A DNA stretch of 38,993 bases from a virus, in IMG/VR virus record IMGVR_UViG_3300019487_000057, positions 1 to 38,993 of that record. One strand, 5' to 3'. A program made the translations under genes and the position numbers. Shown here piece after piece: positions 11,339 to 31,683 of this stretch (positions are counted from its first letter, which is position 1; each line of letters begins with the position of its first letter). The notes beneath the pieces were generated by a model. The model was given only the letters and a program-made list of their open reading frames with translations, was not told where the DNA came from and ran no database searches.

Positions 11339-12472
11339 TTATCCTGCTCCGATCTCTTCCTCGGCAACCTGACCAATCAAAACCAGCAATTGGTTGCAGG
11401 CGACGACCACCTGCACCGGGGCGATGGGCGTCGGCACCGCCAGATTATAGGTGCCCAGATCCACCACCCCCGTGATTGCGTCCTCGGCGTTGAACCTCAG
11501 CAACCGAAAGAGCGTCGTCGCCCCTCCTCCCTGACGTGCAAGTACGTAGCGATCCGCCGTTCGTCCCGGTGTCTGCGTCACTTGCACCAGATTACCGCGC
11601 AGGCTGGCGTCGTAGGGGTCGCCGTCCCGAGTCAGCGTCCGCGTCTCTTGCGCCGACATTGTCGTGATGCGCAGATAGCGCGCAGGAGCATTGAGCAGCG
11701 TCACCGTCGCCACGCCGTCATGGACGGCGAGACAGCTTCCTCCGGCCTCGACGGCAGGCGGGTCCGGCTCGGCCGCAGGTGCGGTCGGGTCCGTCAGACC
11801 TGGCGAGTAGGGATCGGTGAGCGCATAGCGATCCAGGACCGCATACTGTCCCCCCGATACCCGCCAGCGGATGAGGCTGAAGTAGCGGCGGCTGCGTGTC
11901 GTTTGCTGATCGTTTACCCATTGCTGGTAGCCGCGCAGGTCGTCCAAGGCATAGAGATCCCAGGGAGCGACTGTATCAAATGTCACCGCCGCGCCACCGG
12001 AGGTGGCCGAGCCATTGGCGAAGCCTAACTCGTTCGCTCCAACGATCTGCCGCAGCTCCGCCGTGAGCGCGTCCACCACCAGCCCCTGCGCGACCCCCAC
12101 TACCTGGGCCAGCGTCAGTGTGATGCCGTCCGGGTCGGGACAGCGGCACTGGCATCCGCCCACGAACGTCGGCCAGCGCAGCGGCTGGTGGGCGACGGGA
12201 GAGGTGACGAAGCGGCGGGCAAGACCGCCATGGACGACGATCAGATCTCCTAGTCGAGGCTTTACACCGCTGTAGGGAACGAAGCCATCATTGGGCCCAA
12301 CCCAGACATGCCCCGAGGGCACCTCGTCCGGCTGAACCGGCAGGCGTCGCGAGCGCGCATCCGGCGGTGGCTTTGAAGCACGCGGCACCAGCCGCCCCAC
12401 GTCGGGGGCGGGGGCCCCCGGCGCTTTGGGCCAGAGGATCGTCAGCTTGATGGGGATTTCGTCCCGGGGCAT
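11339..12472 (-). CDS. Tail/baseplate-region hypothetical protein
   Basis: 377 aa. The N-terminal 80 residues are Pro-rich and polar; a CQCRCPD patch occurs near residue 107. The rest mixes helices (LTLAQVVGVAQGLVVDALTAELRQIV) and strands. No domain was recognised. It lies four bases downstream of the OB-fold protein gene and one base before the next gene, in a tight tail-tip operon, which is the only hint of function. Confidence 0.55.
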   Translation of the reverse strand: MPRDEIPIKLTILWPKAPGAPAPDVGRLVPRASKPPPDARSRRLPVQPDEVPSGHVWVGPNDGFVPYSGVKPRLGDLIVVHGGLARRFVTSPVAHQPLRWPTFVGGCQCRCPDPDGITLTLAQVVGVAQGLVVDALTAELRQIVGANELGFANGSATSGGAAVTFDTVAPWDLYALDDLRGYQQWVNDQQTTRSRRYFSLIRWRVSGGQYAVLDRYALTDPYSPGLTDPTAPAAEPDPPAVEAGGSCLAVHDGVATVTLLNAPARYLRITTMSAQETRTLTRDGDPYDASLRGNLVQVTQTPGRTADRYVLARQGGGATTLFRLLRFNAEDAITGVVDLGTYNLAVPTPIAPVQVVVACNQLLVLIGQVAEEEIGAG

Positions 12473-12475
12473 GAG

Positions 12476-12733
12476 TCAGCTCACCTCGTTATTACGCGTG
12501 CCGACCCCGACGATCATGGGCTGGTGTGATCCCTGGCGCACCCACACCTGGTCACCTGCCAGGAGGGGGAGCCCCGCCGTCGGCTGACACGCGACCGTCT
12601 GGCCGCCGATATTGACCATGACCTGCGAGCCATCTAAACGCAGGACGATCCCCGAAACAAGCCCGCCGCCTCGCGACACCGCCCGCGCCGCCGCCTCCGT
12701 CTGTGCGACGAGAAACCGAGCTAGATTCGCCAT
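12476..12733 (-). CDS. Small OB-fold-like baseplate protein
   Basis: 85 aa from the ATG at 12733, six bases after AAAGGAG. An N-terminal helix is followed by SGIVLRLDGSQVMVNIGG, TVACQPTAGLPLLAGDQVWVRQG and PMIVGVG, the strand pattern of OB-fold domains in phage baseplate spike proteins (gp5/gpV-type N-terminal domains). No catalytic or needle domain follows. It probably forms part of the tail tip. The frame is open upstream through 12826, so longer products are possible. Confidence 0.55.
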   Translation of the reverse strand: MANLARFLVAQTEAAARAVSRGGGLVSGIVLRLDGSQVMVNIGGQTVACQPTAGLPLLAGDQVWVRQGSHQPMIVGVGTRNNEVS

Positions 12734-12882
12734 CCCCATCTCCTTTGTCTCGTCTGCCGCAGTCGCCGCCGCACCCGCCGTACGTAGGGTAGATGGTGGA
12801 GCAACGCCAGCCAGTAACGCCGGCATACCGAGTTGCGACGATACCAGTGAAGCATTGAGAGCATCCGTCGATCCAGGATCAA
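12721..12882 (-). CDS. Possible Arg-rich 53-aa protein
   Basis: A TTG start at 12882 lies five bases after a perfect AGGAGG. The frame runs 53 codons and ends by overlapping the start of the OB-fold gene. The product has 18 Arg plus several Trp, Tyr and His residues (MLHWYRRN, HHLPYVRRVRRRLRQTRQRR). The strong ribosome-binding site is the main evidence; composition could also be an accident of the GC-rich overlapping frame. Confidence 0.35.
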   Translation of the reverse strand: MILDRRMLSMLHWYRRNSVCRRYWLALLHHLPYVRRVRRRLRQTRQRRWGWRI

Positions 12883-12894
12883 ACCATCCTCCTA

Positions 12895-13575
12895 TTAAAG
12901 GCCACCCCGATTCACCAAGTATGTGTTTTGTTGATTGGTGTCGGCAGTTCCGTGTGCCGTCTTACGTTTACGACGAGCGACCTCCATTAATGCGTGGCAT
13001 GCGCGACACCTGCGTTGACCGCGCGATGTCGCCCCTTTGCCCCAATAGGTATTGGCTTCGTCATAAGCATGCCCACGCCGACAAGTAGGTTTGAGCCGGT
13101 AAGGACACTTGTTATTCGCTTGTTCGTTCCGGGTCGCCCATCTACAATTCCCTGATTTGTAGCCCAATTTGTTGTCAATGCGATCCAGGGTATGATTTGT
13201 CGTAGGAGCGTCTCCCATATCATCGTGAAACACTGAAAATGACCTCCAACGGTCACAGACAGTAATCCCAGAACCGCCGTAATATGAGTAGGTGGCGCAC
13301 TTAGTATCTGTGCATCGCTTCCACATGCTCCTCCAAGTTACCCACTCTTTTGAATGGGACTTGCCATGCGTCTTTAAGTGTTCCTTTCGCCAGCAACCAC
13401 AAGATAGAGTGCTTCCTCCGATTAGATTCTGAGGTTTGAATGTTTTTATCATCCCGCAATCACAACAGCATTCCCAATGCCGAATTTTTCGTCCGTGTAA
13501 TGGCGAAGGAAGCCGAAACTCTCGCACTGTAACTAACCTGCCGAATCTCTCCCCAAGCGTAAATGGATGTTTCAA
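12895..13575 (-). CDS. HNH endonuclease with C-terminal zinc module and a borrowed jelly-roll tail
   Basis: 226 aa from a TTG start overlapping the stop of the jelly-roll gene (TTGA). The N-terminal part has GERFGRLVTVRE and a Cys cluster (ECCCDCGMI, LSCGCW). The HNH-related core is YYGGSGITVCDRW followed by HTLDRIDNKLGY and NCRWATRNEQ. A zinc module follows (TCRRGHAYDEANTY, RRCRACH), like those of two other HNH proteins here. The last residues, QQNTYLVNRGGL, match the C-terminus of the upstream jelly-roll protein, QQTQYLMSRGGI, and are extra to the nuclease family. The base composition (AT-richer) differs from its neighbours. Confidence 0.85.
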   Translation of the reverse strand: MKHPFTLGERFGRLVTVREFRLPSPLHGRKIRHWECCCDCGMIKTFKPQNLIGGSTLSCGCWRKEHLKTHGKSHSKEWVTWRSMWKRCTDTKCATYSYYGGSGITVCDRWRSFSVFHDDMGDAPTTNHTLDRIDNKLGYKSGNCRWATRNEQANNKCPYRLKPTCRRGHAYDEANTYWGKGATSRGQRRCRACHALMEVARRKRKTAHGTADTNQQNTYLVNRGGL

Positions 13576-14345
13576 ATTCCACCTCTGGACATGAGATATT
13601 GGGTTTGCTGGATACGGTCTGGCTCACTATGAGATGTCTTAAACGCCCAGAAATCCAAAAACTTACCGTCGCAGTCGTTGTTTCCATTCCCATCGGCCAG
13701 AAACGGCAGCGTACCGTTGCCCAGTGTATAGCCGCCGCTGAAGAACTCCGTACCGGTTCCGATCAGGACACCGTCGCGGTAGACGCGCACCTCTTCAGCA
13801 ACCTCATCAAAGATCCAAGCGAGTACTTGCAATCCAGCTACCGTCGCCGCCACTTCTTCTACAATACCATCAGATCGGTAACCAACATTACCATTGCTGT
13901 TCAAAAGAAGTTGCAAATTGCCATCTCCACCAGTATTGTTCATGTCCAGCACGATCTCTTCACCCGAACCTGCCTCGCGATCAAAGAGGAGGTAGAAGGA
14001 GAAGCCTCCCGGAACGTTGTCCGACACCAGCGCCTGAAAATGGCGCTGGCTGGCGCTCTTGGAGACATACGGGTGGCCGTTGATGAGATCGCCTGCGCCG
14101 CTCTCGTAGATCGGCAGCGGAGAGCCGTTCACGGTCCATCCGGTACTGATGGGGTTGCCGCCCCCCTCCTGCTGGTCCTGCCAATACTCGATGCCGTCGC
14201 CATCGTTGGCCGGCGTCAGGAAATCGAAGCTGCTGTAGACATCCTCGTCCGATTCCAGTTGGATGACGGCGCCCGCGACGGGCGTCCCCCCGCCGGGGGT
14301 GCCGGTCGTGGCCGAGGAGATATTCGAGTAAGCGGAAAATGGCAT
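13572..14345 (-). CDS. Concanavalin/LamG-like jelly-roll virion protein
   Basis: 257 aa. An N-terminal Ser/Thr/Gly-rich anchor is followed by a beta-sandwich: YWQDQQ, HFQALVSDN, SFYLLFDRE, NLQLLLNSNGNVGYRSDG, LAWIFDEVAEEVRVYRDG and FLADG. This is the strand order of LamG/concanavalin-like carbohydrate-binding domains found on phage tail tips. The C-terminal helix DRIQQTQYLMSRGGI is typical of the last helix of this family. It probably binds host surface sugar. It is next to the FN3 tail protein gene (two-base gap). Confidence 0.65.
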   Translation of the reverse strand: MPFSAYSNISSATTGTPGGGTPVAGAVIQLESDEDVYSSFDFLTPANDGDGIEYWQDQQEGGGNPISTGWTVNGSPLPIYESGAGDLINGHPYVSKSASQRHFQALVSDNVPGGFSFYLLFDREAGSGEEIVLDMNNTGGDGNLQLLLNSNGNVGYRSDGIVEEVAATVAGLQVLAWIFDEVAEEVRVYRDGVLIGTGTEFFSGGYTLGNGTLPFLADGNGNNDCDGKFLDFWAFKTSHSEPDRIQQTQYLMSRGGI

Positions 14346-14347
14346 CT

Positions 14348-16309
14348 TTAGATCAGCGCGAAGGCGCGCACCCTGTATGAATAGGTCGTAGACGGTGTCA
14401 GTCCGACGTCCAGATAGCTTGTGGAGTTGGGCGGAAGGATGGCGATCTCCGTCCAGACCACCTGATCTAGAGACCGCTCGACGCGGTAGCTGGACTCGTT
14501 GCTGGCGTTGTCGGTCCAGGTGAGTTGGATCTCGGTCGTGCTGATGGCCGTCGCCAGCAGGTTCGTCGGCGCCGCGACGGTGGCCACGGTGGGGTCGAGC
14601 GGCACGCTCTCGGTCAGACGCCGTGCCGTGCCGCTGGTGCGGCCGCCGTTGACGTCGAAGCGATGCTGAACAGATTCAATCCAGTAACTCACGAAAATAT
14701 CAGGCGCAACCTCCACTTGTAGCGGTTGGCCTGCCCAGAGATTAGGATCGAATGTCCCGTCAAAATTCACCGTCTCCCAGCGCACAGGAGTAAGTTGCAA
14801 TTCTTGTTCTTGAGTGGCAAGATCAAAGATCTGCTGCGCCTCCGACGAACCAATGTAGGCGTTCTCATAGATCCAGGCGTTGCTGGATCGGCGTCCCTCC
14901 GTCGGTATTCCATTGACCAAGGGGAGGGGAGGGAAGACTACCTGGATCGACTGTACTTCATCCCGTCCAAGTTGTGAGTTAGCAGTGGGGAGTTGACCGC
15001 CTACGAGCTGCGAGTCGACAAAGTCCGTCGTAAGCTCATTGTCGTTGTCCGGGTCCACCAGGTAGGCGGAGATCTGCGTCCGGACACCGGAGGAATGCGT
15101 CTGGGAATGGGTACGCAGCACGACGCGTGCAGGTTTCCATCGTCCGGCGGCCGTATCATACTCCTGCACGCTCTCCTGCTCAGCGATCTGCTCTCCGTCA
15201 TCGTTGTGAAAATACTGTTTGAAGGTCCGCTGCACCAGATCAAAGTTACCGTTTTGTAACTCCTCGCGCTCCTCAATCGTGCTCCAGAGAATCGCCGTCC
15301 GGAGTGTGATCGGCTCGAAAGCGACCAGTTCGTTGAGCGCCGCCTCGGGATGGTAATACTCGTAGTTGGTGATGATGCGCTTGAGGAGGGTCGATCCAGT
15401 GCTAAAACCGCCACTGTCTAACACCGTCTGGTAGTGACGCTCCTCGGTCAGGATGACCTTCCCCTCTTCACGCTCTTCCAGGGTATAGATTTCCAACCAG
15501 ACGAAATCTTCATAGGTGCCCGCGACGGACTCCAGCAGCTCTCGGTTGATCCGCCGGTTGACGTAATTGTAGCGGCGCTCGGGCCCGAGATCAGGGCGCG
15601 GTTGAGTATAAGCTGCTCCGCGAATTTCGATACCAATTACATGTGCTAGTCTCGGCTGATCGTCATACTTGCGCTGGCTAATTTGGTGCTGACTATGGCG
15701 AGCGCGTGTCACGGCATAGCCAGTATTCGGCGGATTGGCCCAGTCGACGCGCAAAACGCTGAGCACCTTGTCTCTTACGTCCGGGAAATGTTGGATCGAC
15801 GCAAACACGTTCCAGGGCTCCATTAGATCTTGAACGATCTGAAAGAGCGATTTCTGGTGAGCGACATAAGAAGCGTAGAGCGGATAATCGGGAAATGCCA
15901 GCGAACCAATGTTAACGCCTATCTGTGCCGCCGCTTCGCGGAGGATCGCGTGCGCCCGCGGCAACACAGAGGGCGGTCGCGCCTCCCAGACAAACGTAAT
16001 TGGCGTCTGCAGGATCTCGGAGATACCAAGATCTTCACCTTGAACATTAAAAATTGCTCCAGAAGGAGTAATCGTTTGTTGTACTGTTGTCGCTTCACCG
16101 CGTATCAACGTAACTCGGTCTTCATCATATCCTGCAGTGATCACCACAGGACTTCCAATCTGCAATTGCCCTGAGCCCCCCATCTGCACGTTAAAGCCGC
16201 GAGAAGCAGACCCGAGATCGTCGGAAACTTCCCAAGAGCCAGCCAGCTCATTGGTGTCTCCGGCTGCCCCACGGATTAATGCGCGAGCGGTAAAGATAGC
16301 AGTAGGCAT
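14348..16309 (-). CDS. Tail/baseplate hub-like protein with C-terminal fibronectin type III domain
   Basis: 653 aa. The N-terminal half has small beta-domains (GSPVVITAGYDEDRVTLIRGEAT, IFNVQGEDLGISEILQ) and ILREAAAQIGV / SLFQIVQDLMEPWN, patterns seen in phage hub proteins of the gp27/gp44 type. RALIRG near the start echoes the RARI repeats of the neighbouring gene. Residues about 575-653 form an FN3 domain (LATAISTTEIQLTWTDNA, YRVERS, YSYRVRAF). FN3 domains occur on tail proteins that contact the host surface. The hub assignment is inference from order and local patterns. Confidence 0.65.
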   Translation of the reverse strand: MPTAIFTARALIRGAAGDTNELAGSWEVSDDLGSASRGFNVQMGGSGQLQIGSPVVITAGYDEDRVTLIRGEATTVQQTITPSGAIFNVQGEDLGISEILQTPITFVWEARPPSVLPRAHAILREAAAQIGVNIGSLAFPDYPLYASYVAHQKSLFQIVQDLMEPWNVFASIQHFPDVRDKVLSVLRVDWANPPNTGYAVTRARHSQHQISQRKYDDQPRLAHVIGIEIRGAAYTQPRPDLGPERRYNYVNRRINRELLESVAGTYEDFVWLEIYTLEEREEGKVILTEERHYQTVLDSGGFSTGSTLLKRIITNYEYYHPEAALNELVAFEPITLRTAILWSTIEEREELQNGNFDLVQRTFKQYFHNDDGEQIAEQESVQEYDTAAGRWKPARVVLRTHSQTHSSGVRTQISAYLVDPDNDNELTTDFVDSQLVGGQLPTANSQLGRDEVQSIQVVFPPLPLVNGIPTEGRRSSNAWIYENAYIGSSEAQQIFDLATQEQELQLTPVRWETVNFDGTFDPNLWAGQPLQVEVAPDIFVSYWIESVQHRFDVNGGRTSGTARRLTESVPLDPTVATVAAPTNLLATAISTTEIQLTWTDNASNESSYRVERSLDQVVWTEIAILPPNSTSYLDVGLTPSTTYSYRVRAFALI

Positions 16310-16312
16310 AGG

Positions 16313-16927
16313 TCAGATCGGTGGCACGGGCGACGAGATGCGCGCCCGACAGTAGAACTGCGTTGCGGTGCGAGCGATCGCTTGCTGTGTTGGACGTACG
16401 ACACAGCCCGTCGGCACCTCATAGTCAATCGTAAAACTCACCGGCAGGCGGGCGCTGACGACCACCCTGATCCGCGCTTGGCTTGTGAACTGGGTATAGA
16501 TCCGCTCGGCGTCCGTGATGTTGAAAATCACGGGCAGCACTGTGGAGATCTGCTGGAGGACGTTGAAGGAGACCTCCAGCGTGGCGCTGACGCCGGACAG
16601 TATACGCGCACGAGCGGTAAACGGAACGAGCGCCGTTGCGTCAAGAATTCGAGCCCGGCTGAGAAACTCTGCATCCCCTAACGTCAGAATGCGCGCACGC
16701 GCCAGGAACTGCGCCTCTTCGATCACCCGAATTCGCGCCTGGACGTCGAACATCACGCGCGTCTGGTGGGTGATGTTCGCCTGACAGAGGAACTCAGTCT
16801 CCTCTACCCTTAGAATGCGCGCCCGGCTGGTAAAGACGGCCGTCGTCGGCCCGCCGCCCTCCTCGGCGCCGGCTCCCAGAATGATCTCGCCCAGCAAGCT
16901 GTCGGGAGTGCCGAGGATGCCGGTCAT
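16313..16927 (-). CDS. Virion protein with repeated F-x-x-RARI motifs
   Basis: 204 aa made of short beta repeats built on the motif F-x-x-(R/Q)-A-R-I. Instances are FTSRARIL, FDVQARIRV, FLARARIL, FLSRARIL, FTARARIL, FTSQARIRV and FYCRARIS, with FLCQANI as a diverged unit. Close-packed units are 14-17 residues apart. The pattern suggests a repetitive beta structure such as a fibre or solenoid. There is no signal peptide or catalytic motif. It sits in the tail-tip operon next to the hub-like protein, whose N-terminus carries a single related unit (IFTARALIRG). Confidence 0.6.
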   Translation of the reverse strand: MTGILGTPDSLLGEIILGAGAEEGGGPTTAVFTSRARILRVEETEFLCQANITHQTRVMFDVQARIRVIEEAQFLARARILTLGDAEFLSRARILDATALVPFTARARILSGVSATLEVSFNVLQQISTVLPVIFNITDAERIYTQFTSQARIRVVVSARLPVSFTIDYEVPTGCVVRPTQQAIARTATQFYCRARISSPVPPI

Positions 16928-16934
16928 AGGTCCC

Positions 16935-17291
16935 CTACAAGAGCAATCGTGTCAGCCGTACCAGAAGCCAGTTCAGATCCTCTGTGGGGGGAGTCTCCCC
17001 CCGCACCAGCCCCTGATAAATGGCAAGCAACCGCGATTCGTCGTCCATCGGCGCTGGGGTGAGATCCGGCGTCAACTCCAGGTCGTCCCAGACGAACTTT
17101 CCTCCTGTCAGCCGCGCCCCCTTCCAGTCCTCGTGGAGCATCTCTAAGATGAGCGGGTTCTCGGCTGCGGCGAAGTCAATCTCCAGCGTCGCGACGGTCC
17201 CCGGCGGCGGATCGGGATATTGGATCTCCTCGGCCAGCGTCTGCAGCACCCGGATGATCCGCCCGTCTTTGTCGGCGTAGAGGATGGCCAT
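16935..17291 (-). CDS. Small virion-region hypothetical protein
   Basis: 118 aa from the ATG at 17291, two bases after the stop of the upstream tail gene. The sequence starts MAILYADKDGRIIRVLQ and continues with acidic and Trp-containing helices (EMLHEDWKGARL, FVWDDLEL, LLAIYQGLVRGE). No family was recognised. The longer open frame upstream is inside the neighbouring gene in another phase and was not used. Confidence 0.55.
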   Translation of the reverse strand: MAILYADKDGRIIRVLQTLAEEIQYPDPPPGTVATLEIDFAAAENPLILEMLHEDWKGARLTGGKFVWDDLELTPDLTPAPMDDESRLLAIYQGLVRGETPPTEDLNWLLVRLTRLLL

Positions 17292-17293
17292 CC

Positions 17294-18295
17294 CTAACTC
17301 TCCCGGAAGTGATACAGGACCATGCCGTTCTTGGCCGTCGAGTTGAAGCCTTCCATCGCAATTCCCCAATGGGTCGCTGTCAAAAACCCGGTACGTGCCT
17401 GTTGGCCGGTCTTGAACCACTTCACACGATCGACGCTGAACTCGAAATGATGGTTGGTGTTGTCGTCCCGGATGCGGAACCATACCGGCACGATCCCGAA
17501 CCAGCGGCGCAGGAGGTTGAAGTGGTCGGCGCTCGCGGTGATATTGCCGCTAAACGACGTCACCGAGTTCCAATTGCTGGATACGACCGTCGGCCCCGCG
17601 GCCAGCGGTCCCGTACCGGTATCCCACCAATGCGTGATCAGCTCGGCGGAAACGCTATCGTAGAGAAACATCCCCGCCCGCGCAAATGCCTGCCCGGACC
17701 AGATCGGCTCGAAGAGCGCCTCCAAGGTGAAGGGAGCCGCCGGGATCGCCTTGTAGAGCCCGCGGACATTATCTCCCGAACCGCTGGGGATCTCAAAATA
17801 GAGCGTGCCGTTATTATCGGTCGCGGTGGCGGTTCCCTGGTTCAGCCAGGTCAGCGCCGACACCAGCGGAGGTGGCGCCAGCCGCGTCAATCGCGGCCCC
17901 AGATGGTTCCAGGCCGATCCGGTGTCGATCCCGCCGACAAGACCGTCCGTCGGAACAAACAGGCGGTTCTCCAGCCCGGCCGCGGGGCGGTTAGCATAAG
18001 TGTCCTGGACGATGCCGCGTGTGAAGAGCGCCAGCAGCCCGTCTCGTGTCAGGGCCTGCGCGACGGCCGTGCCGTTACCGTGCGAGGCTGCCGTCGTCCC
18101 CTCCTGGCCCCGGACGACGGTCAGGGTGTTCCCCGACCGCGCCGTGACCTTGAGGATCTCGCTCTCGATGACGATACGATAGTCGCCCGCCGAGGAAAAC
18201 TCGCTGGCATCGTTCAGAACGATCGAGACCTGAACGTTGTCGATCGCGCCATTGAGCGTATCCTGAGGCGTGTTGGCATACTGTTCCGCGGCCAT
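17294..18295 (-). CDS. Tail-fibre or receptor-binding-like protein
   Basis: 333 aa. Residues about 1-80 contain a small domain with VIESEILKVTARSGNTLTVVRGQEGT, a motif frequent in phage minor tail proteins. The C-terminal two-thirds is a beta-sandwich rich in Trp and Phe (FTLEALFEPIWSGQAF, RAGMFLYDSVSAELITHWWD, WFGIVPVWFRIRDD, HFEFSVDRVKWF) resembling concanavalin-like carbohydrate-binding domains. A role in host recognition is likely, inferred from fold pattern and operon position. Confidence 0.6.
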   Translation of the reverse strand: MAAEQYANTPQDTLNGAIDNVQVSIVLNDASEFSSAGDYRIVIESEILKVTARSGNTLTVVRGQEGTTAASHGNGTAVAQALTRDGLLALFTRGIVQDTYANRPAAGLENRLFVPTDGLVGGIDTGSAWNHLGPRLTRLAPPPLVSALTWLNQGTATATDNNGTLYFEIPSGSGDNVRGLYKAIPAAPFTLEALFEPIWSGQAFARAGMFLYDSVSAELITHWWDTGTGPLAAGPTVVSSNWNSVTSFSGNITASADHFNLLRRWFGIVPVWFRIRDDNTNHHFEFSVDRVKWFKTGQQARTGFLTATHWGIAMEGFNSTAKNGMVLYHFRES

Positions 18296-18302
18296 GGCAT
18301 CC

Positions 18303-18494
18303 TCACGCCTGCATCAGCACCTGATCCTCAGACGTATCTTGTGTCGCGGCGGCGGCGGCCTGCGAGGGACGCTTCGCCCTGCAGAAGGGGCATACATACC
18401 AGATCTCCGGCTTCAGATCCGGCGGCTGGCCAGAGTAGCGCACCTTCTGCTCAAGGATTCCCCCGCACGCACAACGGTAATTAAATTCGCTCAT
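18303..18494 (-). CDS. Small zinc-finger protein
   Basis: 63 aa with YRCACGG and VCPFCRAKRP, two Cys pairs forming a likely zinc ribbon, and an Ala/Thr-rich tail. The ATG at 18494 overlaps the upstream stop (ATGA). It is embedded between two tail-protein genes. Function not recognised. Confidence 0.6.
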   Translation of the reverse strand: MSEFNYRCACGGILEQKVRYSGQPPDLKPEIWYVCPFCRAKRPSQAAAAATQDTSEDQVLMQA

Positions 18495-19429
18495 CCGATC
18501 CTCTCCTCCACGGCTGCCAGCGCGGCGGCAAACTCCTCCTCCGCGAGCGGCTCGACATCATCGTCCGTCCCCACCCGCACCCGGCCGCGGCGGTAGATGG
18601 CCCAGGACCCGTCCTCCTCCACCCCCAACTCGCAGACGAGATCCTTTAGGCGCCAACCGATCACCTGTACGATGTGCGGCGGAAGCGCCTCTCCCGCACC
18701 GCGCTGCCCGAAAACCTGTACCGTGACGCGGCGGAAGTAGCGGAACTGAAACAGCATGCGCGGCACGGGGAGGGGTAACATCTCGATAAAACTCGCAAAA
18801 AGAGCTGAGTAACAACTGAAGCCGGTCTGGTCCAGCCGATAACTCGGAAGCGCAGACATCGGATGGCGCGGATGGATCGTCAACACCTGGACCTGATCCA
18901 GCCGCACCTCCCTGAAGGGAATCTCTTCTCCTTCGCTTCCGTCGTCCTGCAAAGGGAACTGGCTTACGACGCGATGGTCACTATGAATAACAGCCCACCC
19001 ATACGGCGTTTCTTCCCGCGCCGTCGTAAAAGGCGTCAGGTTGACCGGCAGCGGCGCCGCGCGCAGTTGTTCCAGGAGCCGGTCGATCCCTGCCAGCGAG
19101 AGTGTGGCGTCGATCTGCGCCACCCGGCCGGTCGGCTGCTCTTCCCGGTATTCCGAGACGTTTCCCACCCGGGCGTAAATGCAGTCCGCCGCCTCCCCGG
19201 TGACACAGCATTCTCCTGGGCTGACGCGATAGGTGCGCCCGTCTGTCGGATTCGGAGCCAGCAGGTCCGCGCGCAGGGAAAGTAGGCCCGTCTCACTGAT
19301 ATGCGTCCAAACCTCGACCGCTCCCTGGTCCTCCGTGTTGAGATGGCCCAAAGGGACGCAAATGCACTTGTCATGCTGCCGCGTCACGACGCAGGGCAGC
19401 AGCCCGACTTGAAAATCTTGAGTTGGCAT
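18491..19429 (-). CDS. Hypothetical virion-region protein
   Basis: 312 aa, starting at ATG 19429 after a 106-base non-coding stretch. It contains a Cys-bearing N-terminal segment (CVVTRQHDKCICVPLGH, ECCVTGEAADCIYARVG), a beta-rich middle and a C-terminal acidic helix (LAEEEFAAALAAVEERIG). No domain was recognised. It is the first gene after a gap within the tail-tip operon, followed by the zinc-finger gene with overlap. Confidence 0.55.
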   Translation of the reverse strand: MPTQDFQVGLLPCVVTRQHDKCICVPLGHLNTEDQGAVEVWTHISETGLLSLRADLLAPNPTDGRTYRVSPGECCVTGEAADCIYARVGNVSEYREEQPTGRVAQIDATLSLAGIDRLLEQLRAAPLPVNLTPFTTAREETPYGWAVIHSDHRVVSQFPLQDDGSEGEEIPFREVRLDQVQVLTIHPRHPMSALPSYRLDQTGFSCYSALFASFIEMLPLPVPRMLFQFRYFRRVTVQVFGQRGAGEALPPHIVQVIGWRLKDLVCELGVEEDGSWAIYRRGRVRVGTDDDVEPLAEEEFAAALAAVEERIG

Positions 19430-19535
19430 GTTAGTTGCTTTTAAAGCAGTTCGAGTATCTCAACCTTTTTCCTCGTATTCGCACAAAGTATAAGGAAGCC
19501 TACGAGGCGTTTATTGATAGGCTGGATTTGTCGGA
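19430..19535. other. 106-base gap with inverted repeats
   Basis: No convincing gene. A 7-bp inverted repeat (CCTCGTA / TACGAGG, 23-base loop) lies at about 19472-19508, and a short palindrome TGCTTTTAAAGCA is about 10 bases from the minus-strand start codon at 19429. The AT-rich stretch could hold a minus-strand promoter or processing site for the tail-tip genes, but no clear -35/-10 pair is seen. Confidence 0.35.
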
Positions 19536-20039
19536 TCATGTCTCACTATAAGAGAGGCTCAGACCCGAAAAGCTGGTGTCGCCCGCTGGTGCCGCCGTCG
19601 TCGTGCGGAGCTGCGTCACGATGAAATCACTCATCCCCGAGCTGGTCACGATCGAGCCGCTGAGGTTGCCACCGATCGAAATGTTCGCCGTCCCCGGGTC
19701 CGCCGTCGGGAATGACGACGTTGCGATCGAAGATGTCACCTTCGCGGGCTGCAAGTAGATCTGCTGCGTGCCGCGGAAGAAGAGAAAAAGGCCGGTCGCC
19801 GGGCTGAAGTTCGTGCTGAGCCACATCCGCAGGTCGCGGATCTCCGTAAACGACCCCGTGAACATCGCTCGCTTCCAGACTTCGTAGCTGTTGTTGCCGA
19901 AGGTGATGGGATTGGCGGCGTAGACGGCGGGGTTGGCCACGTCCGCGTCTTGGTAGTTCCATGCGTTGCCCGATCCGCCCACTGAGGTAAGGGTAGGGCC
20001 TGCTCCCGTATGTTGAATGATGGCTAGGGTCGCGGGCAT
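19536..20039 (-). CDS. Virion-associated beta-rich hypothetical protein
   Basis: 167 aa from the ATG at 20039, preceded by AAGG and GGAG. The sequence has strand-rich segments (FLFFRGTQQIYLQPAKVTS, TANISIGGNLSGSIVTSS) and ends GLSLSYSET. Two aromatic surface patches (SYEVWKRAMFTG, RMWLSTNF) are visible. No family was recognised; position suggests a tail-tip or fibre component. It follows the 20421 gene by ten bases. Confidence 0.55.
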   Translation of the reverse strand: MPATLAIIQHTGAGPTLTSVGGSGNAWNYQDADVANPAVYAANPITFGNNSYEVWKRAMFTGSFTEIRDLRMWLSTNFSPATGLFLFFRGTQQIYLQPAKVTSSIATSSFPTADPGTANISIGGNLSGSIVTSSGMSDFIVTQLRTTTAAPAGDTSFSGLSLSYSET

Positions 20040-20049
20040 TCCTTGTCTC

Positions 20050-20421
20050 CTAAACGGATAGCGCCGTCGCGTCCAGATCAAATCGCCGCGGATTGTTGTC
20101 GGCTGTACGTCCGGCGGGTACGTTAGCACGCACCCAGAAGGGCGCGGTCGCACTGTCGGGTAATGTCCCAAACACGATGGGAGACGTCGTCCAGGTGCCG
20201 GGACTTCCGCCGCTGTCCGGGGCGATCTGGGCGTAGTCGTCGCCGTCATTGTTTCCAACCTGAACGATTGTTAGTATCAAGTCTTCGGCATCTTGATCCC
20301 CAAAGTTCTCGATGAATCGCTTGATCGGCGTCGAAGTACCTGGCGATTGGACGTTGCCCAGGGCCTCTGACGTCGTGATCGTCGATTCATCATCTTCGAG
20401 AAAGCGAAGTGCGGCAGGCAT
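20050..20421 (-). CDS. Small beta-rich virion-region protein
   Basis: 123 aa. The sequence runs MPAALRFLEDDEST, then IKRFIENFGDQDAEDLILTIVQVG and FWVRANVPAGRTADNN, compatible with an immunoglobulin-like beta-sandwich (AFWVRANVPAG is a frequent strand in such virion proteins). It is the first tail-tip gene after the glycosyltransferase island. Family not recognised. Confidence 0.55.
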   Translation of the reverse strand: MPAALRFLEDDESTITTSEALGNVQSPGTSTPIKRFIENFGDQDAEDLILTIVQVGNNDGDDYAQIAPDSGGSPGTWTTSPIVFGTLPDSATAPFWVRANVPAGRTADNNPRRFDLDATALSV

Positions 20422-20462
20422 ACGAGTAGTTTACCATGGCCGAACGAGCGAACGCCCGAACG

Positions 20463-20573
20463 CTAGAGCCGCGGTACTCCAAACCGTTCCAACAGCATCT
20501 CCAGCTCCCGCGCCACGAGCAGCACACTGAGCCGCTTCATGCAGACGACGTGCTGCCGCGCATCCGATTTGCG
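20463..20573 (-). pseudogene. Orphan duplicate of the GT9 gene 3' end (36 codons plus stop)
   Basis: About 50 bases downstream of the GT9 stop, the minus strand reads RKSDARQ-HVVCMKRLSV-LLVARELEMLLERFGVPRL-stop. The end of the GT9 protein itself is RKSNPAE-HVVCMKRLSV-PLVSRELEIMLERFGVPRR-stop. Codons differ at many synonymous positions (for example GTA/GTC, CGT/CGG, CTC/CTG), so this is not a fresh tandem duplication. It has no start codon or ribosome-binding site. It is a remnant either of a second, deleted GT9 paralogue or of a diverged allele introduced by recombination. Confidence 0.85.
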
Positions 20574-20620
20574 CCCGAGTGCTAATGGCACTCAACGAGA
20601 ATCCGTCAGAATTTGCTTCG

Positions 20621-21867
20621 CTAACGTCGAGGAACACCAAACCTTTCCAACATTATCTCCAATTCTCGCGAGACAAGAGGGACGGAGAGACGCTTCATGC
20701 ATACGACGTGTTCGGCTGGATTGGACTTTCGCAAGCAATTTTTTAAATACCAGCACGGAGCGCAATCCGCCACCTCCTTGCCAACGGTCCAGTGGCCCGC
20801 ATACTCCCGCATCCGGAGCGCGCCGTCCGTCGAGCCGAAAAGCCCAATGACCGGCACCCCCAGCGCCCCCGCGACGTGCAGGAGACCGGAATCGGGCGAC
20901 ACCACCGCATCCAGGTGCGCGAGGATCGCCGCCACCTCTCGGATAGGGCGACCGAGCACGGCCGGGATCTCGTCGGTGACGCGCTGGTGCATGTCGAACG
21001 TCACCGTCTTGTAGCCACGGATCTGAAGGTGAATGGCAAGATCCGCCGCGTGAGGCCATGCCCGCACCGGATCGTGAGCCTGCAGCACCACCCCGACACG
21101 GGGACCGTCTCCAAGATGTTCTTCGACCCAGCGGCGACCATCCGCCAGCTCCTCCGGCGTCAACACCAGGATGGGGCGACGACTGCTCGGATTGAGACCA
21201 CCCGCACAGTGACGCAGCCAGATGTCAGTACGGTGCTCGGTGACGTGGGGCTGCGTCTGCGTCTCGACAATGCTGCAGATAACGTTCAGATCCACGACCA
21301 GGTCGGTGTCGATCACACAGTTCGGAATGTGCTCATTCGGCGTCTTGGCATACTCCCAGCGGCACGCACGCGTGATCCCGGTCACGAACTCGTTCCCCTC
21401 CACCCGCTCGATGCGGTCGATGTGAGGGTTGTTGCGGAACAGCATCGGGAGGGCGCCCGCCATATACTGCCAGGAGGTCGCCACGGTCACCTGACAGCCC
21501 GGATACTTCTCCTTGAGCCCCAGAAAGCAGGGGGTCAGCATGAGGACGTCCAAGTGTTGCGACAAGGCTCTTTATCCCTGTCTCTCTCCGTTTCCAGAGA
21601 GTATCGGATCATCTCTTCGCCTCTTTCACAAGGCGCTGCGCGCTCGTGGGCCTTTACCGCCCGTTCTGGGCTCCATGGCCTGATCTCTGAGCCTTTTAGC
21701 CGTTCCCGGCTAACTTGGCTGCGGATTCCCATACCTTGCGGCTTCAGGGTTCCCGCAATTCACGCAGTACAACTTGGGCATCGCTACCCAAGCGGGCCAC
21801 ATAGACCAATGCCCCCAAGTTGACGTATGACGCATACGCGCAGCGGTTTTTTCCTAAGGAGTTGCAC
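20621..21867 (-). CDS. GT9-family glycosyltransferase (heptosyltransferase-like), split by a group I intron
   Basis: Exon 1 is 21867-21823 (GTG start, AAAGGAT upstream; 15 codons) and exon 2 is 21559-20621, giving 327 aa after splicing. Exon 1 supplies RKKPLRVCVIR, the first beta-strand; exon 2 continues QHLDVLMLTP. The join reproduces the VI(K/R)-x-(R/Q)H-x-D-VL-x-TP loop of WaaQ/RfaQ-like heptosyltransferases. Further family marks are VVSPDSGLLHVAGALGVPVIGLFG (donor-binding region) and a C-terminal Cys cluster (CAPCWYLKNC, CMKRL). It would transfer a sugar, possibly heptose, to a surface glycan, virion protein or other acceptor. Without splicing only a TTG-initiated protein lacking strand 1 could be made. 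It lies downstream of a methyltransferase gene. Confidence 0.85.
21560..21822 (-). ncRNA. ORF-less group I intron (IA-like) in the GT9 gene
   Basis: A complete core can be drawn on the minus strand. P1: exon CATACGT (21829-21823) pairs with GTCTATG (21806-21800), with a U-G at the splice site and one C-C mismatch. P2: CTTGGG/CCCAAG (21792-21787, 21778-21773). P3: CTGCGTG (21767-21761) with CGCGCAG (21642-21636). P4: TGCGG (21757-21753) with CCGCA (21724-21720). P5: CCC/GGG. P6 and P6a: TTAGCCG-GGAA-CGGCTAA (21713-21696). P7: GATCA (21685-21681) with TGATC (21611-21607). P8: CGCCT/AGGCG (21635-21618). P9: CTCTCTG-GAAA-CGGAGAG (21601-21584). Extra helix GCCC/GGGC between P7 and P3 fits group IA. 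The last base is the expected G (21560). Splicing restores the GT9 reading frame. Confidence 0.9.
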
Positions 21868-22797: not shown

Positions 22798-23484
22798 TCA
22801 TCCTACATCCCTCCGAAAAAGAGCTAACCCCAGATCGTTGTAAACAAACTGCGAAGAGAACGATGCTCCATCCTCTTCTACGAGCCACGTCAAAAAGTCG
22901 GCGATCGCATTTTGCCGCTCGGGATCGACTGTACCCGACGCCACGAGCAATCCTCCGGGGGCCGTCACGCCCCATCCCGCCCGGAGGACCGCGAGCATAC
23001 CCTCCGACGTCGCCTCGTCCACCAGGACGAGGCGGAACCTTTCCGCTGTCAATTCGGGGGGCAGCCCATTCCGCGCGACGTCGTGCTGGAAGCACGTCAT
23101 CCGCACCTCGGGCAGGAAGCGCCGAAACGTCTCCGCCGCCATCGCCAGCGTGCGATACCCATACGCCGGCGGTCCCATGTCCCGCTCCGGGTCGATCGCC
23201 GTCAGGCGCACTCGCCGCAGGCCCGCCAGCAGAGCGCCCGAACAGAGACAATAGGACGCATAGCCAAGGTACATGCCAACGGTCAAGATAGTAGAGGGTT
23301 TGAACGTCGCTCCCAAACCAGCCAGATCGTCGTAGCCAGATCCCCAATCGCGAAACTCCTCACGCCGCCGAGCAATGTCCGCCGGATGTGCGATCTCATC
23401 CAGGTCGATCCGCACGCGTCGGCGCGGATCGTAGAGGTCCTTGTCCCGCAACGCCTTGCGGATCGCCCAGCGGACGTCGGACAT
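22798..23484 (-). CDS. Methyltransferase-like protein (second of the island)
   Basis: 228 aa, with its ATG overlapping the upstream HNH stop as TAATG. A Rossmann-like N-terminal half has FKPSTILTVGMYLGYASYCLCSGAL (motif I region), RRVRLTAIDPER (acidic strand 2 end), RFRLVLVDEATSEG and VTAPGGLLVASGTVD. This arrangement matches class I methyltransferases related to the Methyltransf_24 group. Motif I is diverged (VGMYLG rather than EIG/DxG), so activity is less certain than for the neighbour at 21929. Confidence 0.65.
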   Translation of the reverse strand: MSDVRWAIRKALRDKDLYDPRRRVRIDLDEIAHPADIARRREEFRDWGSGYDDLAGLGATFKPSTILTVGMYLGYASYCLCSGALLAGLRRVRLTAIDPERDMGPPAYGYRTLAMAAETFRRFLPEVRMTCFQHDVARNGLPPELTAERFRLVLVDEATSEGMLAVLRAGWGVTAPGGLLVASGTVDPERQNAIADFLTWLVEEDGASFSSQFVYNDLGLALFRRDVG

Positions 23485-24020
23485 TAGTAACCGTCAGCGC
23501 ATGCAGTAGCTTGCGTAAAGTTCAATACAGCAAATTCACCGAACAATTCAACTGCAGCCCGGTCGTAAGCCCTTGCCGCGTCCTCCTTGGTGAAGTAATA
23601 GCCTAGCGACATTCGCTTCCAACGAAACTTGATGTACGCTCGCCATTTCTTCTTGGACGGGAAGTAGCTTACGCCTCTGTAGCCGCTAGTGTTGTTTCGT
23701 TTAAGCTTCGAGTTTGCGCCGTTTTCCGAACAACTTGCCAACCGAAGATTTTCCCGACGGTTGTCCAGAGTGTCTCTACTGACGTGATCTGCTCGTTCCA
23801 TTGAAGTGAGCGAACGGCCTAGCTTTCGAGCCAAGACTTCCCTCGCCATACTAATGGTCGCCTGGCCGTCTTTTCGCTCTTCATATCTTGAAACATACTC
23901 ATAACCCGCTTGGTTTCTATGTACCCGCCATGGCCACTGCAATACAAACTCATAATCCTCGTCCGATACTTTTGCCACCTTGCCTCGGCCATGTTTTCCA
24001 GTCAACGAAATTTCAACCAT
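23484..24020 (-). CDS. HNH endonuclease with AP2 DNA-binding domain
   Basis: 178 aa from the ATG at 24020 (MVEISLTG-KVAKVSDEDYEF), the usual start of this family; the frame is open further upstream to 24107. The HNH region is LTSMERADHVSRDTLDNRRENLRLAS, followed by NGANSKLKRNN. A C-terminal AP2 domain has SGYRGVSYFPSKKKWRAYI and LGYYFTKEDAARAYDRAAVELFGEFAVLNF. It is a free-standing homing-type nuclease, inserted between two methyltransferase genes with 8- and 1-base overlaps that keep the operon translationally coupled. Lower GC than its neighbours supports transfer. Confidence 0.88.
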   Translation of the reverse strand: MVEISLTGKHGRGKVAKVSDEDYEFVLQWPWRVHRNQAGYEYVSRYEERKDGQATISMAREVLARKLGRSLTSMERADHVSRDTLDNRRENLRLASCSENGANSKLKRNNTSGYRGVSYFPSKKKWRAYIKFRWKRMSLGYYFTKEDAARAYDRAAVELFGEFAVLNFTQATACADGY

Positions 24021-27113: not shown

Positions 27114-30100
27114 TCATCCTCTCGTCGGCCCGCGGCGGAACTGCTGCTCCAGGCGGGTCAACAATGCGCCGAGAATACGCTCCACCAAAGGGTCCAGAAC
27201 CGAGCCCGCCTCCAGCCCCCCGCGCAAGTCAACGGTCAAGTTGACGTTCGCAGGGCCGATAGCTTGCGCGCGAGCCGCAGCCGTAGCTGGAGTGAGTTTT
27301 GCAATTTCGTTGATGACGTTTGCCAGCGGTTTGAGCGCCGCACCAAACTGCCCCAAGTCCGGGACGAGGTCTCGCGCCTGCTTGGCGAGGTTAATGAGCT
27401 GATCGCGCAGGTCAATACTGGTATCGATCACCTGCCGCTCTATATCGACGAACGTCTCCAGCGCCTGTCTCCGCGCTTCCGACTCCTGCACCACCAATTG
27501 GTTGAGTTGTTCCCTTTGCTGCCTTGCGGCGTCCGCTACCTCCGCCTCAGCGCGGATGGTGCCCGCTTCGCGGCCGACACGCTCCAGTTCCAGTAGACGC
27601 GGGCGATTGACCTCTTCACCCACCGCGCCGCGACCGCGCAACTCTGCCAGCTCAAGCCGCTCGGCGGCAGTGAGCCCCCGGCGGCGCGTCTCGATCTGCG
27701 CTCCCTCCCGCTGGATCTCCAGACCCTCCTGCGCACGCTCGATGTCGGTGCGCCTGAGGCGTCGGCCGCGCGCTGCCGCCAACTGCGGGAAGAGTCCGCG
27801 CGCCAGCCCTCCGACGCCCGCGACGTTGGTGAGACCACGCTCCTCCAGGAGCCGCTGCAGCTCCGCCTCCAGATCCTGCACCGTGCGTGCGGTGGAACCA
27901 AGTATCGCCTCGGAGAGGCCCCGCACCGCCTCGGTCACCTGATCGGCGAGAATCTCCGGGGCTACTCTCTCCGAGCTCGCCCGCTGGAGCGCGTCGCCGA
28001 TCGCGCCGCCGATGACTCCCGCGATCGTCGTCTCGATGACGCCGCGCGCCGCCACGTCCTCCCGCCGCAGTCCAAGCCCCCGGCGGCGCAAGACGAGATC
28101 CTCCCGCGTCTCCGCCTCCCGGCGGATGGCGTCGGTCAGCGCCCGTTCGGACTCGATCTGCTGCTTGATAAGATCCCGCTGTTCCCGTGCCGTCTGCCGC
28201 TGAAAGTCCCGGACGCGCTTACGCGCCTCCTCCTGCTCTCGCACGGACTTGATGGTGAGACGAGCAAAGTCATTCTGTAGAGCGATGGCCTGATCGCGAG
28301 TATTCCGGAAATCTTCAAGATTCTCTCGTCGATTTGTTTCAATCAGCGCCGCGCGTTCCCGCAGCCCTTGCTCCGGCGTTTTCTCTCCCTTGCGCACTTG
28401 CTCCTGAAGAGCGGCAAACTCATTCTCCAGATCAATGCGCCGCTCCCGAATACGATTTTCACTCGCTCTTGCCTCGGAACGACGCACACCCAATTCGGCC
28501 TGACGATCTAATTCTGCCAACTGACGTATGCCTTGCTTCTTGGTGGCTGTAATAAATTCGTTTCGCGTTTTCTCATCTTTGATCCGCTTGTCCCCGATAG
28601 TAGCTTGTTCAATAGCAAGGGCTGTCTCCAATTCAATAATACGCCGTGTATTCTCTTGTGCCTGAGCAACGCGTAATTTTTCCTCAATACTAATGCTTCG
28701 CGTGATGGCTTTTTCGATCTGTACGCGATGATCGCCGCTCGCCTCGTAGATACGGCCGAGTTTTCGCGCTTCATCGCGAGCGTTCTGCAGTCGTTTCTGC
28801 GCCTCTAACAGGGCAGTTCGCGTTGCGGTAACTTCCGGACTTTCCGGGCCTACGGCACGACCAGCGCCCGAGGCAGCCCGCTGAATTGCTTGCTCCAAAG
28901 TAAGACCGGTTGATGGAGGTGCCACACGACCAAAGATCGGCTGCCCCTCCTGAAGCGTAACCGAAGCAGAACGCAATCCCGGAAAGACGCCCGCTCCTCC
29001 TTGCCCCCGCCCTGCCGTAAGTTGCGCTTGCCGAAAACGCTCTTGCGCCTCGCGAAACTGTCGATCCAGTTCAGGCAACTGCTGCGAAAGACTAAGACGA
29101 CGCTTCCCTTCCGTCGATAAGAATTCAGATCTCGCTTTTTGTCCAGGCAGACGGGTCCTGGCGATACGTTCTTCCTCCCGAGCCTGTAAGATTTCACCAA
29201 AAAAGCCCCGCCCGCCCCGAAACTGCTGGACAAGAACCTCAATGAATGCGGCTCCCATGGCAGCGCCAGCCGCCACCCCTACGGCCGAGACAAAAGCCGT
29301 CCCGATCGCCTTACCGATAGCAACCAGCGAGGCGCCACCCGCCGCGGCGGCAGGAGCCGCCGCCAAGTTGGAAGCAGCCGCCGCACCTCGCGCTACTGTC
29401 CCGGGCAGCAGATGCTGCGCCGCTCGCGCTCCTCCAGCGGCCGCCGCACCACCCGCCGCTGCGCCCCCAACACCCAACAGCCCTGGGATGCCACCCGCCA
29501 CCCGCTGACCGAGCGCCGTCCCGGCAAACACTCCACCCGCGCTTCCTAACCGTGACAGACCGGCGCTCACCGCGCCCGCCACGCGCACCGCGCCCAGCGC
29601 CCCAAAGACGCCGATCAAAATCTGATGATTTCTAACCAGATACTGGAAGAAGTTTAGAAGGGTTTGAAAAGCTCCAGACGACGCCACCCGTCCCATCGTC
29701 TCAAACGCGATCACGAGCGTCTCAACGAGCCGTTCGGCTGTGCCGGAATCTACAAACCGCTCGATGACGCGAAAGATCCGGGTGATCACCTCGCCTGCCC
29801 GCTTCGCAAACGTCGCGATCGCTTCGGACGAGAGCGCCTCATTGAAGGAGAGAACCCGGCCGGTGATGCGCTTGAAGACGTCCTCCAGAGTGAGACGCAG
29901 GAAGTCTTGCCCTTTGCTGATTAATGTGGTGAATGCGGCCTCGGACGACTTCCCGAAAGCAGAGACGATCGGCTCCGCCCCGGCTAACCGCTCATTGAGA
30001 AGTTGGACGAGGTTGCCCGCTTCGCGGGCATTCTGCACCTCCTCGGTCGTCAGCCCGAGGATCTGGGCGACCGTCGCGCCGCGGCGGATGTCGCCAGAGA

Positions 30101-31238
30101 GGATCGCCCGCACCTCCTGCACGAGCTGCGGCGTCCCGCCCGCGAGGCCGAGACTCTTGGCCACCTGCGCGATGCGGGAGGTGAGCCGGATGATGTCTCC
30201 TTCGGGGATGCCGGCGCGAATGGCCTGGGAGAAGTTGGTGGTGACGACCTCCACCAGCTCCTCGGTGGTCAAAATCGTTTTGTTCGCCTCTTCACGGATC
30301 TGCGCGAAGAACCGCTCCCCGTCGCGGGCGAAGACGCGGAAGGCACGCGCCCCCGTGACGATGTTCCCCTGCGCGTCCTCCACCCGCGAAGTGAGCGCCA
30401 GCGCCGTGCCGAGCCCGAAGCGGAACCGCTCCCATTCCCGGTTCAACTCGATGCCGCGCTTGACGAGACCCGTGAAGGCGGCGGTAACCCCCGCGAAAAG
30501 CGCCAGCCGGAAGGCGGTGCTGAAGAAGCGCGCCTGCTGGGTCATCACCCGCAGATCTTCGCGCCCGATACGCTGGAAGGTGCGGGAGAGACGTGCGGCT
30601 GTGGTGTTTGCCTCGGCGAGGTGACGGCGCAGGGCCACGATATCCTCGGGTCGCGAACCCGTAGGAATAGGACGAAAAGGCGGTCCCGTCCCTCCCGTCA
30701 CCTGGCGAATCTGAGAGCGCAGATCGCCTGCTTCGGTGCGACGGCTCCCTGTCGCCTGCCGATCTGCTTTCCGCCGTTCTTCCGCTTCAATCCGATTCTG
30801 ATTCCGTTGATTTTCGAGCGCCTGCCGATTCAGCTTACGCTGATCTTCTAGCTGTGCCCGTCCACGTTGACGAAACGCTTCCAGATCGCGGGCATTATTG
30901 AGTTTGGTTAGCTCCAATTCTTGTCTGCGAGCCAAGGCGATGAGATCCAAACGATTCTTTAACGCCGCTCTCAGATCGTCGGTTTGTCGCTTGAGTGATT
31001 CTCGAAATTCGATCTCCTGCTTCTTCAGATCGCTCCGCTGCTGCGCCGTCGTCGAACCGCCCGCCGTTCCGCCCCCCCGCGGTGCTGCCGCGCCCGTCAC
31101 CACCCCCGTAACACTGACGGCGGCGAGTTTGCTGGCCCGCTCGTTATACTGGCGCCAACGCCGTTCGGCGGCGGTTAGCGTCTTTTCGAGTTCCTTTATA
31201 TCAGCAAGAACCCGGGTGATCAAACTACTTTCTGGCAT
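27114..31238 (-). CDS. Tape measure protein
   Basis: 1374 aa from the ATG at 31238 (MPESSLIT). It is the longest gene of the tail block, with long heptad-like helices at both ends (about 1-150, 880-1070 and 1180-1300; e.g. RNQNRIEAEERRKADRQ) and a Gly/Ala-rich hydrophobic centre (about 550-690) that would insert into the membrane. A region around 200-500 has the PhoR-like tape-measure N-domain flavour (ITRVLADIKELEKTLTAAERRW at the start). It sets tail length and passes through the tail tube during injection. At about 1.5 angstrom per residue the tail would be near 200 nm. It overlaps the HNH stop at 31225. Confidence 0.85.
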   Translation of the reverse strand: MPESSLITRVLADIKELEKTLTAAERRWRQYNERASKLAAVSVTGVVTGAAAPRGGGTAGGSTTAQQRSDLKKQEIEFRESLKRQTDDLRAALKNRLDLIALARRQELELTKLNNARDLEAFRQRGRAQLEDQRKLNRQALENQRNQNRIEAEERRKADRQATGSRRTEAGDLRSQIRQVTGGTGPPFRPIPTGSRPEDIVALRRHLAEANTTAARLSRTFQRIGREDLRVMTQQARFFSTAFRLALFAGVTAAFTGLVKRGIELNREWERFRFGLGTALALTSRVEDAQGNIVTGARAFRVFARDGERFFAQIREEANKTILTTEELVEVVTTNFSQAIRAGIPEGDIIRLTSRIAQVAKSLGLAGGTPQLVQEVRAILSGDIRRGATVAQILGLTTEEVQNAREAGNLVQLLNERLAGAEPIVSAFGKSSEAAFTTLISKGQDFLRLTLEDVFKRITGRVLSFNEALSSEAIATFAKRAGEVITRIFRVIERFVDSGTAERLVETLVIAFETMGRVASSGAFQTLLNFFQYLVRNHQILIGVFGALGAVRVAGAVSAGLSRLGSAGGVFAGTALGQRVAGGIPGLLGVGGAAAGGAAAAGGARAAQHLLPGTVARGAAAASNLAAAPAAAAGGASLVAIGKAIGTAFVSAVGVAAGAAMGAAFIEVLVQQFRGGRGFFGEILQAREEERIARTRLPGQKARSEFLSTEGKRRLSLSQQLPELDRQFREAQERFRQAQLTAGRGQGGAGVFPGLRSASVTLQEGQPIFGRVAPPSTGLTLEQAIQRAASGAGRAVGPESPEVTATRTALLEAQKRLQNARDEARKLGRIYEASGDHRVQIEKAITRSISIEEKLRVAQAQENTRRIIELETALAIEQATIGDKRIKDEKTRNEFITATKKQGIRQLAELDRQAELGVRRSEARASENRIRERRIDLENEFAALQEQVRKGEKTPEQGLRERAALIETNRRENLEDFRNTRDQAIALQNDFARLTIKSVREQEEARKRVRDFQRQTAREQRDLIKQQIESERALTDAIRREAETREDLVLRRRGLGLRREDVAARGVIETTIAGVIGGAIGDALQRASSERVAPEILADQVTEAVRGLSEAILGSTARTVQDLEAELQRLLEERGLTNVAGVGGLARGLFPQLAAARGRRLRRTDIERAQEGLEIQREGAQIETRRRGLTAAERLELAELRGRGAVGEEVNRPRLLELERVGREAGTIRAEAEVADAARQQREQLNQLVVQESEARRQALETFVDIERQVIDTSIDLRDQLINLAKQARDLVPDLGQFGAALKPLANVINEIAKLTPATAAARAQAIGPANVNLTVDLRGGLEAGSVLDPLVERILGALLTRLEQQFRRGPTRG

Positions 31239-31665: not shown

Positions 31666-31683
31666 TTTGTTCAAGATTTATAA

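Follow-up and report, generated by a model that had tools for sequence, protein, structure and literature searches.

Group I introns are well known in phages, where they favour conserved coding sites (PMC3984707, PMC2814812). The closest described systems are the phage introns of subgroup IA, among them those of T4 td, nrdB and nrdD and the IA2 and IA3 introns of the Bastillevirinae, in which a homing endonuclease ORF is present in 32 of 45 introns (PMC11878797). A short form without an endonuclease is found in a minor tail gene of mycobacteriophage BAKA, where an intron of 265 nt was shown by RT-PCR to be spliced in vivo (PMC3706429). The locus described here lies on the minus strand of a 38,993-base stretch of DNA (the window, classed as linear and probably a fragment), and has in common with the subgroup IA introns a P3-P9 core that includes the P, Q, R and S elements, additional helices lying between P7 and P3, an exon-end U, an intron-end G, and a conserved coding site. 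It differs from them in having no homing endonuclease ORF and in its host, a GT9 glycosyltransferase gene rather than a polymerase, terminase, thymidylate synthase or ribonucleotide reductase gene. The BAKA intron is likewise short and ORF-less with the same U and G ends, but resides in a tail gene, and the resemblance noted here is one of features. From its sequence, a small ORF-less group I ribozyme very probably interrupts the phage GT9 gene between the Gly21 and Asp22 codons and splices out in frame.

Searching the window against Rfam to E <= 0.5 returned no family other than RF00028, the group I intron model, which matched the minus strand at 21814-21584 over positions 1-253 of 253, its full length, with 54.4 bits (gathering score 50, E 2.9e-11). 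The group I class and strand given in the original prediction, which had named a search with this model as a check, were thus borne out. The intron measures 254 nt, beginning with the C that follows the exon U, and its folding z-score is -4.33, with none of 200 shuffles as stable. The helices and loops already named there (P3 of 7 bp, P7 of 5 bp, P6a with a GGAA loop and P9 with a GAAA loop) are present along with P4, P5, P6, P7.1, P7.2, P8 and an extra 3' hairpin, as are the quoted P, Q, R and S elements. Because P7.1 and P7.2 lie between P7 and P3, both at least 97% paired with double changes, the intron is IA-like, as had been proposed; the assignment rests on these two helices. At the ends, U 21805 forms a U-G pair with the guide in a predicted GGU.C/GGCC P1, and GCAACACUUG comes after P9.x and closes with the terminal G (21551). 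The 254 nt are almost wholly ribozyme core and contain no ORF of endonuclease size, consistent with the earlier description of the intron as ORF-less. Table 1 lists the features. A regulatory alternative pairing of exon 1 with the P2 strand, seen in one local fold, was dropped, its duplex energy being no better than that of a shuffled exon (z 0.14).

Table 1. Coordinates of the interrupted GT9 gene, the intron helices and a tape-measure-like gene, as positions of the window
Feature	Position	Strand	Description and basis
Exon 1, GT9 gene	21805..21867	-	63 nt, 21 codons, encodes VQLLRKKPLRVCVIRQLGGIG, last base U; direct reading and GT9 HMM junction scan
Group I intron	21551..21804	-	RF00028 match; boundaries by junction scan and ends of eight relatives
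P1	21795..21807	-	GGU+C (21807-21804) with GGCC (21798-21795), splice-site U-G; predicted fold
P2 hairpin, 9 bp	21772..21793	-	Contains in-frame TAG 21786-21784; predicted fold
P3	21767-21761 with 21642-21636	-	Region 21636..21767 encloses P4, P5, P6, P6a and P7.1/P7.2; covariation
P4	21757-21753/21724-21720	-	At least 97% paired, 11 sequences
P5	within P3	-	At least 97% paired, 11 sequences
P6	21719-21717/21693-21691	-	At least 97% paired, 11 sequences
P6a, GGAA loop	21713-21707/21702-21696	-	At least 97% paired, 11 sequences
P7.1	21680-21677/21652-21649	-	At least 97% paired
P7.2	21671-21668/21662-21659	-	At least 97% paired
P7, G-binding-site helix	21685-21681 GAUCA with 21611-21607 UGAUC	-	Compensatory changes
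P8 hairpin	21618..21635	-	Covariation
P9, GAAA loop	21601-21584	-	Predicted fold
P9.x, 3'-terminal hairpin	21582-21561	-	Carries conserved GGAUAAAGAGCC; fold and exact motif in 16 viral contigs
Exon 2, GT9 gene	20621..21550	-	309 residues, PF01075 C-lobe match; stop 20621-20623
Tape-measure-like gene	27114-31244		

Covariation was evaluated in an alignment of 11 sequences, the window intron and ten relatives, with the window sequence supplying the core structure. Paired cells amounted to 96.5% (80% in shuffled alignments), and both-side changes were found in 33 of the 53 core pairs, where shuffling gave a mean of 15.4 and none of 500 shuffles reached as high. The covariation score was 0.479, as compared with 0.150 for shuffled alignments and at most 0.10 when the partners were slid by 1 to 3 columns; a slide of one column lowered pairing to 38-42%. 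Helices P3, P4, P6, P7 and P8 are each 100% paired over the 11 sequences with double changes in all five; in P8 both sides change in 3 of 5 pairs, and in P7 compensatory changes affect 2 of 5 pairs, the GAUCA/UGAUC of the window being replaced in relatives by GACUA/UAGUC or GACCA/UGGUC.

A DNA pattern on the intron core was found in 36 viral contigs, the best relative (L006) being 78% identical over 207 nt, and Rfam called group I introns in 11 of the 12 loci submitted. In eight contigs (L006, L013, L018, L002, L040, L042, L043 and L044) open proteins are restored by removal of introns of 233-266 nt, the boundaries of which were set by the U/G rule, exon 1 ending in U and the intron in G as in the window. 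These introns are like that of the window in size, in having no ORF, and in the common GGAUAAAGAGCC 3' hairpin; they are unlike it in their hosts, which are a tail-region protein and proteins of unknown function, with guides matched to each exon. The P1 geometry recurs in L013 (GGGU^C/GGCCC) and L018 (GGAAGAU^C/GGUCUUCC). In L018, L040, L042 and L043 the splice falls between the K and the I of a start resembling GTWKIYAKAKKYIG, and in L002 and L044 a few codons later, after KIYA, in the same protein; a single protein family thus has two insertion sites, and splicing at either gives back the same GTWKIYAKAKKYIG-like sequence. The L013 intron splices MHFTG^SFNRIADF, and the homologue of its host is the window ORF at 19536-20258 (55% over 119 aa), which is uninterrupted. 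The 109 kb contig L013 and the window region 11342-20270 (minus strand) were also seen to have four tail-region genes in common, at 30-55% protein identity. Paired, close-set group I introns were noted in three related contigs (L004:8030-8473, L013:1062-1648 and L030:4335-5056); the two Rfam matches of L004 are about 12 nt apart, so that the exon between them would be very small.

The ORF holding exon 2 matches PF01075 (GT9, heptosyltransferase-type) with E 6.8e-14, in agreement with the GT9 assignment made earlier, and its matches in the PDB are heptosyltransferases (1psw, 3tov and, weakly, 2gt1/6dfe). In the weak 2gt1/6dfe alignment the first residue of exon 2 falls on HepI D13, the proposed catalytic base, at which an alanine substitution lowers activity 4688-fold (PMC5713226); the first exon 2 codon, GAC, would by this alignment encode the predicted catalytic Asp. 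At the other end, exon 1 begins with a GTG (21867) just downstream of an AGGA-type ribosome-binding site (AAAGGATGAAGAGTG), and this GTG is the probable start, as the sole ATG, GTG or TTG start seen in frame past the upstream stop. Homologues are continuous at the site, as in L051 (RDARGIGDIL), L064 and L067 (IKLDALGDVV) and PDB HepI (VKTSSMGDVL); they include L051 from LR756511 (23%), L064-L068 from IMG/VR (N-terminal identity 33-36%) and GT9 genes of bacteria. The intronless homologues that the original prediction had suggested seeking were in this way found among phage GT9 genes, and since they include the upstream part, the internal TTG is not where the protein begins. With the closest of them 23-36% identical, no near-identical empty allele was seen; neither exon 2 nor the upstream methyltransferase had a close relative in viral contigs, and in bacterial genomes the spliced protein had one match, at 23%. 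The gene clusters with three methyltransferase-like genes, and the spliced enzyme may act on glycans of the phage or its host. Two copies of the 3' end of this gene are present (20461-20740, minus strand), with a current end at about 20733-20619 (GC 0.50) and a remnant past the stop at about 20566-20461 (GC 0.65, resembling the gene body); over 92 nt the two show 75% identity, and the peptides they encode (HVVCMKRLSV..VxRELExxLERFGVPR) are almost alike. It looks as though the current end is a recoded one that came in together with about 50 nt of additional sequence holding a small hairpin.

To place the splice sites, every open-frame junction (1,187) within a grid of 70 by 60 bases was translated and scored with GT9 HMMs, no splice rules being assumed. 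The junction 21804/21551 was best on all three (78.4, 74.4 and 114.1 bits), the last of these scores being from a clean model of 11 continuous GT9 homologues; a second HMM (gt9b) included wrongly picked ORFs, and the clean 11-protein model returned the same winner. The sole tie was its own one-base slide, which does not have the U/G ends, and a separate scan limited to U/G ends chose the same junction. Joined here, the exons recreate RVCVIRQLGGIG^DVLMLTP, and the protein regains its GxGD loop, with GIGD aligned to HepI D13; the interruption of the GT9 N-terminal loop, as originally proposed, stands. The coordinates then proposed, 21822-21560, which would join RVCVIR to QHLDVLMLTP, do have a U before 21822, a G at 21560 and an open frame. 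However, they rank 292nd, 81st and 252nd on the three HMMs (67.4, 67.0 and 100.0 bits), 7-14 bits under the best, and drop the GxGD loop residues that exon 1 encodes in frame, RVCVIR continuing as QLGGIG, the GT9 motif up to the residue preceding the catalytic aspartate. They also put the terminal G at the base of the hairpin, whereas in most relatives it lies a few nucleotides past the last hairpin, as in CAAC-ACUUG^ of the window and CAAC-AAUUG^ of L006. The earlier boundaries are thus very improbable, differing from the supported 21804-21551 by 18 nt at the 5' and 9 nt at the 3' site, and with both sites wrong the RVCVIR-QHLDVL junction peptide is wrong as well, the HMM scan supporting RVCVIRQLGGIG followed by DVLMLTP. 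The P10 pairing of TTG with CAA depended on the former 3' site, and for the corrected one no convincing P10 was found. As a judge of the junction, the PF01075 Pfam score was uninformative because it matched the C-terminal half only; an alternative 5' site after GGGGGCAU, in a competing P1 register, was set aside on reading the sequence, as no 3' G in the right frame lies close to the end of the intron.

Group I introns splice by a two-step, guanosine-initiated reaction, and from its class membership the window intron is expected to follow this standard route. In the precursor RNA, the ...GGU of exon 1 would pair with the guide GGCC as P1, exogenous guanosine bound in P7 would attack after the U (21805/21804), and the freed exon 1 would attack after the terminal G (21551/21550); the exons would be ligated in frame at a predicted ...GGCATTGGT-GACGTCCTC to give a GT9 enzyme of 330 aa. 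Unspliced, translation reads VQLLRKKPLRVCVIRQLGGIGLCGPLG* and, because the TAG in P2 ends 21 nt into the intron, yields only a 27-residue peptide, so that the full-length enzyme needs splicing; with the intron at a conserved codon pair, only exact excision would restore it. A chance resemblance or some other structured RNA, in favour of which nothing was found, is extremely improbable in view of the Rfam E-value, the covariation across 11 sequences, and the relatives in other genes at protein-restoring sites. It is somewhat less remote, yet still quite unlikely, that the ribozyme is degenerate or splices poorly, the GT9 gene being broken or read as a shortened protein from TTG 21565 inside the intron. 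Such an ORF does exist, the 3' end of the gene is rearranged, the exon side of P1 is short (GGU plus the intron C-G), and when more of the exon is included the folds show a competing P1 register. Against this, all core helices are intact and co-vary, homologues possess the upstream part, and both exon frames are intact and code for conserved GT9 residues, those of the catalytic loop in exon 1 among them, a pattern to be expected only under selection on the spliced product. Most likely the intron is a selfish passenger, one of a group of small introns without ORFs that have colonised different genes of uncultivated phages.

This group, of 233-266 nt, occupies several unrelated host genes of uncultivated phages and is nearly absent from isolated-phage records: against 50,697 phage records, the window intron DNA matched three Enterococcus phages, over 56 nt only. 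How introns of this kind reach new genes without their own endonuclease is addressed here tentatively; reverse splicing via the short P1, or borrowing of free-standing HNH endonucleases (collaborative homing), is a possible though rather doubtful route. Relevant to spread are the occurrence of relatives in several unrelated genes, the matching of guide sequences to each site, and the close-set pairs of introns in three contigs. A free-standing AP2/HNH gene is located between two methyltransferase genes at 23484-24019 (minus strand), about 1.7 kb upstream of the intron, and is a candidate partner for collaborative homing.

The type of element is well known, including short ORF-less phage introns, and it is the GT9 host gene that is apparently unreported. 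Among the papers on group I or self-splicing introns and glycosyltransferases listed from an open-access full-text library, none was listed as describing a phage glycosyltransferase host, and neither that literature nor the collections used here offered a counter-example to the earlier statement that none is known, although absence is not thereby proved. With this locus a carbohydrate-modifying gene joins the hosts of phage group I introns, and the lineage itself is poorly sampled, being scattered over uncultivated phages with almost no members in isolated-phage records. Annotation that overlooked the intron would give a truncated protein without the complete catalytic-loop motif, and relatives with protein-supported boundaries allow tests of how endonuclease-less introns spread.

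By its structural and replication genes the window is from a tailed phage, and several further features were observed along it. A second free-standing HNH endonuclease gene (31225-31674, minus strand; HNH_3, E 6e-16) overlaps the start of the tape-measure-like gene, and a 786-aa ORF at 36591-38951 (minus strand) seems to fuse the head maturation protease and the major capsid protein (Peptidase_S77 plus Gp23). At 36-3248 (plus strand), a DNA polymerase III alpha-like gene contains an intein (PF14890, E 1.1e-13), which carries an HNH endonuclease region at residues about 560-770.
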